In this document: positions 24,503-26,279 of the stretch, in pieces
Layout of the letters: each line of letters starts with the position of its first letter
Position numbering within the stretch: position 1 is the first letter of the stretch
Assembly (NCBI GenBank): GCA_003141315.1
Contig: PLLP01000002.1
Span: forward strand, 336,338-400,337
Reading direction: 5' to 3'
DNA length: 64,000 nt
Origin: Phycisphaerales bacterium
Lineage (GTDB): Bacteria > Planctomycetota > Phycisphaerae > Sedimentisphaerales > Anaerobacaceae
The notes under the pieces: generated by a model
What the model was told of the DNA's origin: nothing
The model's database searches: none
Seen by the model: only the letters and a program-made list of their open reading frames with translations
Position numbers and translations under genes: made by a program

Positions 24503-24781
24503 ATGGGAAGGTCTTTGAAAAAAGGACCGTTTGTTGATGCAAAGCTGTTTGCCAAGGTGAACAAACAGATTGAGGCAAATACCAAGGAGCCTATAAAGAC
24601 CTGGGCAAGAAGATGCACAATAATACCGGAGTTTGTCGGTTTTACTTTTATGGTGCATAACGGCAGAATGTTCCTGAAGGTCTTTATCACAGAGGATATG
24701 GTTGGCCATAAGCTCGGTGAATTCTCGCTCACAAGGGTATTCAGAGGACATTCGACGAGGAAAGTTGAAACAGAGGCTTAA
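24503..24781 (+). CDS. rpsS: Ribosomal protein uS19
   Basis: 92 residues, 30S head, paired with uS13. [19 protein letters not shown] and [20 protein letters not shown] then [14 protein letters not shown] are typical. GAGGG precedes the ATG at 24503. The 105-base gap before it shows a short GCCCGGCAGGCCGGG inverted repeat and nothing else. Confidence 0.97.
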
Positions 24782-24806: not shown

Positions 24807-25394
24807 ATGTTAAGTGCAGAAAAATTAAAAAAACTTAGTACAGACAAAAAAGTAACGACCGAGCAGCTCGCAGGGCAGATTGTTCGCGGCGGGCTGGATA
24901 AGAGAAAAGCGGTATCAGCCGTTCGTAACTGGAAGAAGGGTCTTGAAGTCCCGATTCCGCGAAAGGCTGATGTCGAGAATCTCGCGGCGGTTTTGGGTGT
25001 TGCGGTAAGCCAGGTATCGCAGTGGCGGTCTTGTTACCGGTATGCTCCCGGCTCGCCGCGCAAGGCAGGCCTGATTCGAAATCTTATCGTCGGCAGAGAC
25101 GTACAGGATGCGATGGACATATTGAAATTTACCCGCAAGAGAGCGGCTGCTATGGTGAATAAGGTTCTCAAAAGCGCAATTGCTGATGCAGAAGAGCAGC
25201 AGGCAAATGTGGACAATTTATATATAAGCGATGTCCGCATAGATGATGCCGGCATAAGGATGGGGACAAAGCGTTTTCGAGCCAAAGACAGGGGCAGAGC
25301 ACATTCGATTTCGAAAAAGGCCTGCCATATTACCGTCATAATAACTGAAGAAGCTGCTGCGGTCAGGCAGGTTAAAGCTGCCGCAGCCGAATAA
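24807..25394 (+). CDS. rplV: Ribosomal protein uL22 with an N-terminal helix-turn-helix-like extension
   Basis: 195 residues against ~110 in E. coli. The uL22 core starts at about residue 76 (CYRYAPGSPRKAGLIRNLIV, VQDAMDILKFTRKRAAAMV, then KDRGRAHSISKKACHITVII) and is complete, including the tunnel hairpin. Residues 1-75 are extra. They include TTEQLAGQIVRGGLDKRKAV, SAVRNWKKGLEVPIPRK and ADVENLAAVLGVAVSQVSQW, a run of helices resembling an XRE/Cro-type helix-turn-helix (NW..G..VP..., LA..LGV). No closer ATG in frame could give a normal-length protein (the next Met lies inside the core), and the frame is continuous with no shift. The extension would sit on the solvent side of the 50S. Its role is unknown. 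Confidence 0.93.
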   Translation: MLSAEKLKKLSTDKKVTTEQLAGQIVRGGLDKRKAVSAVRNWKKGLEVPIPRKADVENLAAVLGVAVSQVSQWRSCYRYAPGSPRKAGLIRNLIVGRDVQDAMDILKFTRKRAAAMVNKVLKSAIADAEEQQANVDNLYISDVRIDDAGIRMGTKRFRAKDRGRAHSISKKACHITVIITEEAAAVRQVKAAAAE

Positions 25395-25436: not shown

Positions 25437-26279
25437 ATGGGACAAAAGGTATCACCAATAGGTTTTAGAACAGGAATAACCAGGGGCTGGATGAGCGTTT
25501 GGTACGCGCCGAAGGCCAGCTACGGTGATTTTCTAGTCGAGGACCAGAAGATTCGCCGGTTTATTGACAAGAAATATAACCGCCAGATGCCGAAAGGGGC
25601 TGTCTCGCGGGTTGAAATAGTCAGGACACGCAACGAGGTTAAGGTGATGTTGAACAGCGCAAGGCCAGGCATAATAATTGGCCCGAGGGGTGGCGAAGTC
25701 GAAAAACTCCGTGAGGAGCTTGAGGCCCTTACCGGACGAAAGGTTACGGTTAATGTTACGGAAATTAAGGAGCCGGACCTTGATGCGAACCTCGTGGCGG
25801 AGGCTATTGCCGAACAGTTGATTAAAAGGGCGGCATTCAAAAGAGCGATGAAGCAGTATTGCGAGATGGTAATGAATGCCGGCGCAAAGGGAGTAAAGAT
25901 TATGTGCAGCGGCCGTCTGGCGGGTGCGGAAATAGCCAGAAAAGAAATGATGAAGATGGGCAGCGTTCCCCTTCATACGCTCAAGGCCGACGTGGATTAT
26001 TCGACAGCGACAGCCGTGACCACTTATGGCTGTATAGGTATAAAGGTTTGGATTCATAAAGGCGCCTTTGGAGAAATACTTGAGCCAAAGCCAAATCGCG
26101 GCATGAGGCGCAGCGGCGGCGGCGGTGGTGGCGGTGGTGGTGGCAGGCCGACAAGACGAGGCCCTTCACATGGTCATGGTCATAGAGCAGTTGAGGCACC
26201 GGCTGCACCGGCTCCGCAAACAGATAATGCTGCTAATGCAGCACCGGAACAAAATGAAGGCACTGCGGAGACTAAATAA
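25437..26279 (+). CDS. rpsC: Ribosomal protein uS3 with low-complexity C-terminal tail
   Basis: 280 residues against ~210-235 usual. KH domain (about 40-110) with GPRGGEVEKLREELEALTG; C-terminal core with RLAGAEIARKEMMKMGSVPL and HKGAFGEI. After about residue 222 comes a run of ten Gly encoded by a GGC/GGT microsatellite (26113-26146) and an Ala/Pro/Asn/Glu tail. The core is normal; the tail would hang from the 30S head near the mRNA entrance. Confidence 0.96.
   Translation: MGQKVSPIGFRTGITRGWMSVWYAPKASYGDFLVEDQKIRRFIDKKYNRQMPKGAVSRVEIVRTRNEVKVMLNSARPGIIIGPRGGEVEKLREELEALTGRKVTVNVTEIKEPDLDANLVAEAIAEQLIKRAAFKRAMKQYCEMVMNAGAKGVKIMCSGRLAGAEIARKEMMKMGSVPLHTLKADVDYSTATAVTTYGCIGIKVWIHKGAFGEILEPKPNRGMRRSGGGGGGGGGGRPTRRGPSHGHGHRAVEAPAAPAPQTDNAANAAPEQNEGTAETK

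Follow-up and report, generated by a model that had tools for sequence, protein, structure and literature searches.

The rplV gene in the 64,000-nt stretch of DNA analysed here (the window) lies between rpsS (24503-24781), from which it is separated by 25 nt, and rpsC (25437-26279), in a ribosomal protein cluster of the S10 type. A whole-genome check found its product, Table 1, to be the only uL22 encoded in the genome. The uL22 core is complete, matching PF00237 over residues 78-179 (E 1.3e-27, 96.4 bits against a cut-off of 28) and TIGR01044 with 89.1 bits against 73.65. The protein thus shares the whole core and the operon position with bacterial uL22 at large, and compares with solved bacterial uL22 structures at a Foldseek TM-score of about 0.92 (target-normalised), whereas ordinary bacterial uL22 lacks the 72 additional N-terminal residues that form a separate domain here. 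Clade-specific tails are frequent on uL22, as in C. acnes, in chloroplasts and in the L22 fusion described by NCBIfam PRK12279, but the extension in the window differs from these in being a compact, recognisable DNA-binding fold. The PRK12279 model (NF008917, 311 positions) gives 50.1 bits against a cut-off of 526, on the uL22 part only, and to judge by sequence its extra domain is unrelated to the one described here. No extra domain was found in the ten other ribosomal proteins of the cluster that were tested. Separately, uS3 ends in a C-terminal tail of about 60 residues (26085-26279) that is of low complexity, Gly-rich and His/Ala/Pro-rich, and without a family match.

Table 1 Features of the rplV gene and its product, with positions in the window
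Feature	Position	Strand	Basis or remark
rplV, uL22 with N-terminal XRE-like domain	24807..25394	+	195 aa and stop; ORF, PF00237, TIGR01044
Predicted XRE/Cro-type N-terminal domain, residues 1-72	24807..25022	+	Conservation, HTH_3 in relatives, AlphaFold2, Foldseek, hhalign
Helix 1, residues 4-14	24816..24848	+	AlphaFold2 model
Helix 2, residues 18-23, first HTH helix	24858..24875	+	AlphaFold2; aligns with XRE helix-2 segment
Enlarged turn, residues 24-31, QIVRGGLD	24876..24899	+	About 8 residues against about 3 in canonical XRE; AlphaFold2, alignments
Helix 3, residues 32-44, recognition-helix equivalent	24900..24938	+	AlphaFold2 (whole protein and domain alone), profile alignment
Basic patch A38-V-(K/R)-N41-W42-x-(K/R)-G-L-x-(K/R)-P49-x-P51	24918..24959	+	Column counts, 56 sequences
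Helix 4 (residues 53-63) and helix 5 (residues 67-70); the initially quoted LAAVLGVAVSQV lies here	24963..25016	+	AlphaFold2; alignment to XRE helices 4-5
uL22 core, residues 73-181	25023..25349	+	W73 is the aromatic of the MA(W/Y/F) start in ordinary relatives
Short tail at the C-terminus of uL22, residues 182-195	25350..25391	+	Model confidence low

The initial annotation had proposed that an XRE/Cro-type helix-turn-helix fold precedes a complete uL22 core, and four lines of evidence agree with this. AlphaFold2 predicts the five helices of Table 1 followed directly by the first uL22 strand (pLDDT 85), and returns the same fold when the isolated domain is modelled alone. Foldseek searches with the domain model give Cro/C1 repressors and controllers of restriction-modification systems as their best matches (C.Csp231I, CapH, SinR, P22 c2 and 434 Cro), with probabilities near 1 and TM-scores of 0.6-0.7, but with E-values of only 0.07 and up (to 0.5). 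By hhalign, the profile of the domain aligns over 64 columns (probability 96, E 2.1e-9) to an XRE profile that we composed from four XRE proteins of the genome together with the domains of the SinR, 434 and P22 repressors. HTH_3 is, finally, recognised in relatives of the window protein: the best E-value among 55 family members is 4.4e-8, 15 of the 55 match at 0.01 or better, and two members scanned singly (L054, 28.9 bits; L051, 25.3 bits) exceed the cut-off of 23, while single members also match HTH_31, HTH_19 and HTH_26. The window copy gives no HTH_3 match, and its HTH matches in Pfam are weak, below cut-offs and in a misleading register. On the strength of these profiles and models we assign residues 1-72 to the Cro/C1-type (XRE) fold.

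With the Cro/C1-type XRE families (PF01381 HTH_3 and PF13560 HTH_31; SinR, P22 c2, 434 Cro, C.Csp231I) the domain shares the predicted five-helix fold and the order of motifs, and it differs from them in the enlarged turn before helix 3, in variable reading positions and in its fusion with a ribosomal protein. Where the HTH typically has a tight turn of about 3 residues, here residues 24-31 separate helices 2 and 3, so that the turn exceeds its usual length by about 5 residues. Two members of family f5 of the same order (L053 and L057) carry additional residues before helix 3 and thus a still larger turn. While both motifs originally quoted as DNA-binding helices do occur within residues 1-75, the helix-turn-helix had been misplaced. 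The profile alignment and the fold given by AlphaFold2 and Foldseek put LAAVLGVAVSQVSQW on helices 4-5 together with W73, where uL22 begins, and LAAVLGVAVSQVSQ likewise falls on helices 4-5, with its final W belonging to uL22. The equivalent of the recognition helix reads KRKAVSAVRNWKK. Relatives have LATALSVEVNDLxxW in place of LAAVLGVAVSQVSQW, and the recognition-helix mimic VSQVSQ is found only in the window species.

Alignment with 54 relatives shows the domain to be conserved (29-57% identity; M1, A38, N41, W42, A60 and W73 invariant), and this conservation argues against a chance N-terminal segment. Across 56 sequences the domain is more variable than the core: mean column entropy is 1.64 bits for the former and 0.87 bits for the latter. 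Variation within the domain is lowest in the basic stretch A-V-(K/R)-N-W...P-x-P: A38, N41, W42, P49 and P51, together with A60 and W73, are invariant or almost so, and positions 40, 44 and 48 are mainly K or R. Positions 36-37, the equivalents of DNA-reading residues, are variable and mostly V/A and S/A/T. The median net charge of the domain in the same 56 sequences is +5 and the median pI 9.8, although the charge spans -3 to +10, so that some members are not basic. The conservation of N41, W42, G45 and P49 may serve folding alone.

One could ask whether the extension is translated at all. It was initially stated that uL22 of normal length has no in-frame start available in the window; strictly, this does not hold, as translation from a TTG at codon 63 (24993-24995) would yield a uL22 of 133 residues. 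An ATG at codon 82 is present in 17 of 56 relatives. That the extension is no mis-called start nevertheless stands. The codon-63 TTG recurs in 11 of 56 relatives, against an ATG at residue 1 in 56 of 56 aligned uL22 proteins of the order, none of the downstream in-frame starts is conserved among these 56, and codon 82 falls within or just past the first uL22 strand. Together with the strong protein-level conservation upstream, the universal ATG leaves a start-site artefact, with residues 1-72 untranslated, a very low probability, and we reject it.

The junction itself lies slightly upstream of residue 75, where it was originally drawn (the annotated span, 24807-25034, comprises exactly residues 1-76). 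The domain ends at residue 72/73, and W73 corresponds in the alignment to the aromatic in MA(W/Y/F), with which uL22 starts in relatives without the extension; the N-termini of these relatives resemble MAWKSSHRFARIAPRK. In these extension-free families of the class, the uL22 ATG lies mostly 7 codons before the core match found by tblastn, rpsS and the core are 35-146 nt apart (238-335 nt in carriers), and an aromatic stands at the spacing of W73 from the first-helix lysine in 21 of 21 rows inspected by eye. The relatives' starts and this aromatic spacing place the fusion point at the ancestral start and make W73 a uL22 residue. The join is of constant length: residue 73 (W73/F73) to K86 spans 14 residues in each of the 56 order members and likewise in the 7 f10/f25 members measured (two further families, see below), and M1 to W73 is exactly 73 residues in 52 of the 56. 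In the AlphaFold2 model, helix 5 passes directly into strand 71-81 (pLDDT 86-91). The constant length from residue 73 to K86 suggests that the domain is attached rigidly to uL22, as opposed to tethered.

A survey of uL22 in Planctomycetota shows the domain to be fixed in the order Sedimentisphaerales and present in two further families of the same class, f10 (14 genomes) and f25 (2 genomes). All 63 tested Sedimentisphaerales genomes with a uL22 carry it (56 plus 7 further); the 56 come from 60 genomes, the other 4 of which lack any uL22 in the assembly. All 80 retained named records, labelled mainly as Sedimentisphaerales, Phycisphaerae/Phycisphaerales or Planctomycetota, match the domain from residue 1. 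Within a sample of the class, uL22 was matched in 148 of 150 genomes and the domain in 34 (25 of the order, 8 of f10, 1 of f25), and the search of Planctomycetota genomes with the domain profile extended this to a phylum sample of 342 genomes, which added 6 f10 genomes and 1 f25 genome; in each of these the domain lies immediately ahead of uL22. It is missing from the approximately 114 other genomes of the class sample and from the rest of the phylum sample, in which two more matches (E about 4e-4 and 5e-4) lie in ORFs other than uL22. No trace of it was found in the sister families that lack it. One extended uL22 of the Sedimentisphaerales type (L135, CAMDDF010000002.1) comes from a record titled Candidatus Kuenenia stuttgartiensis, probably a mislabelled bin.

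To judge by the alignments, the domain is plainly homologous in the order and in the f10/f25 lineages: M1, A38, N41, W42, P49 and A60 are invariant across both, and the enlarged turn is common to them. Yet a tree built from nine other ribosomal proteins puts the order and f10/f25 in separate clades with extension-free families between them, and a topology that unites all carriers is rejected (AU p about 5e-53), the deeper branches of this tree being poorly supported. Independent fusions in the two lineages are disfavoured by the full-length alignment, the common turn and the common invariant residues, as well as by the fact that hardly any other protein in those genomes matches the profile (best E 4e-4 to 5e-4). 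A transfer of the whole rplV gene sits poorly with the tree of the uL22 core, which also separates the two carrier groups, although joining them is rejected only weakly (AU p 0.024). A homologous domain in separate clades implies either an early origin in the class followed by several losses, or movement of the domain itself. The domain is in any event real, ancient and always present in its order.

What such a domain might do is suggested by two precedents on other ribosomes. The N-terminal extension of C. acnes uL22 anchors the 23S helices H2, H24, H46 and H19 (PMC10085706), and the Cro/C1-type HTH of EDF1/Mbf1 lies between helices h16 and h33 of 18S rRNA, setting a precedent for this fold on rRNA (PMC7486125). 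Yeast Mbf1 on a disome appears at rank 34 of the Foldseek list. MBF1/EDF1 differs in being a separate archaeal/eukaryotic factor that binds the small subunit at the mRNA entry and is neither a fusion nor bacterial; the window protein, a bacterial large-subunit fusion, contains no MBF1 or zinc-ribbon N-terminal part. Against this background we lean, with modest confidence, towards a repressor fold co-opted as a constitutive structural or assembly domain of the large subunit that faces rRNA, as opposed to a sequence-specific DNA-binding regulator. The observed basis is a conserved, usually basic domain that is encoded in frame, is fixed throughout its clade and meets the first uL22 strand at constant length. 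Fused straight ahead of the ancestral uL22 start, it would be made and assembled with each 50S subunit and held rigidly on the solvent side, where the N-terminus of uL22 emerges, and the conserved basic end of helix 3 with the following loop would grip rRNA. We found no ribosome structure from the carrier clade, and both the contact and the position are accordingly put as expectations.

The 23S rRNA itself shows no sign of a counterpart: in an alignment of 8 carriers and 6 non-carriers to E. coli, no insertion or deletion of at least 6 nt follows the domain, leaving a compensating rRNA change unsupported. Several 23S genes were seen to be interrupted. At E. coli position 1951, an f10 genome (L181, G141) has a 723-nt insertion with an open frame of 169 codons containing ISGFVDGEGCF, LAGLIDADG-like by eye and probably an intron with a homing endonuclease. 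A member of the order (L169, G038) has 289 nt inserted at position 1871, encoding about 94 residues that include MYYVYVLYEENTEKCYIGYS, GIY-YIG-like by eye, and an f23 genome (L180, G123) has a 453-nt intervening sequence at position 1174, in which one frame looks similar to the known four-helix 23S IVS protein. A split 23S suspected in a further genome (G001) turned out to be a scaffold gap of 100 N.

Other roles have to be weighed against this. Phage repressors and restriction-modification controllers have this fold (E 2e-9), and free uL22 could conceivably use the XRE domain to bind DNA at its operon promoter and repress the operon when ribosome assembly lags. Such autoregulation through DNA binding by the predicted domain is possible but unsupported, and we consider it improbable: the HTH turn is enlarged, the reading positions 36-37 are variable and mostly V, A, S or T, and the mere 25 nt ahead of rplV present no obvious operator. 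XRE repressors mostly function as dimers, whereas each ribosome holds one copy of uL22 and would provide no dimer. Binding of rRNA by the domain seems more plausible than autoregulation on DNA. In a wider version, uL22 would double as a regulator across Sedimentisphaerales, its domain binding nucleic acid (its own operon, its mRNA or a regulatory RNA) either free or on the ribosome, which we think quite improbable.

One could also speculate that the domain docks or senses at the tunnel exit, recruiting a targeting, modification or quality-control factor or touching the nascent chain. uL22 is among the proteins around the bacterial tunnel exit, a docking platform (PMC5071890), and ribosome-associated HTH proteins with a quality-control role are known in EDF1/Mbf1 (PMC7486125). 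The N-terminal end of C. acnes uL22, though, lies amid H2, H24, H46 and H19 and not in the exit vestibule (PMC10085706), no interaction partner came to light, and sister families without the domain speak against a vital partner, making this role rather unlikely. Those same families, free of the domain or any trace of it, would fit a neutral fusion that the ribosome tolerates, folding being its only function, as would the faster evolution of the domain relative to the core. That it is such a passive leftover is nonetheless very doubtful, with the domain kept in every order genome tested that has a uL22, N41, W42 and A60 invariant, and the length almost fixed (52 of 56). A built-in part of the ribosome is most likely what the domain is, and more likely than a gene switch.

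Core ribosomal proteins rank among the least changeable proteins of bacteria, and here a repressor-type fold has become fixed in one of them across an order and two families. We found no publication in the open-licence literature that names a uL22-XRE fusion, and an earlier report is still conceivable. Were uL22 to act as a regulator, ribosome and gene expression would be linked through a core tunnel protein. As a putative constitutive domain of the large subunit, the extension would be a clean case of a transcription-factor fold turned into a part of the ribosome, for which the patchy distribution among families supplies the domain-free relatives as natural controls.
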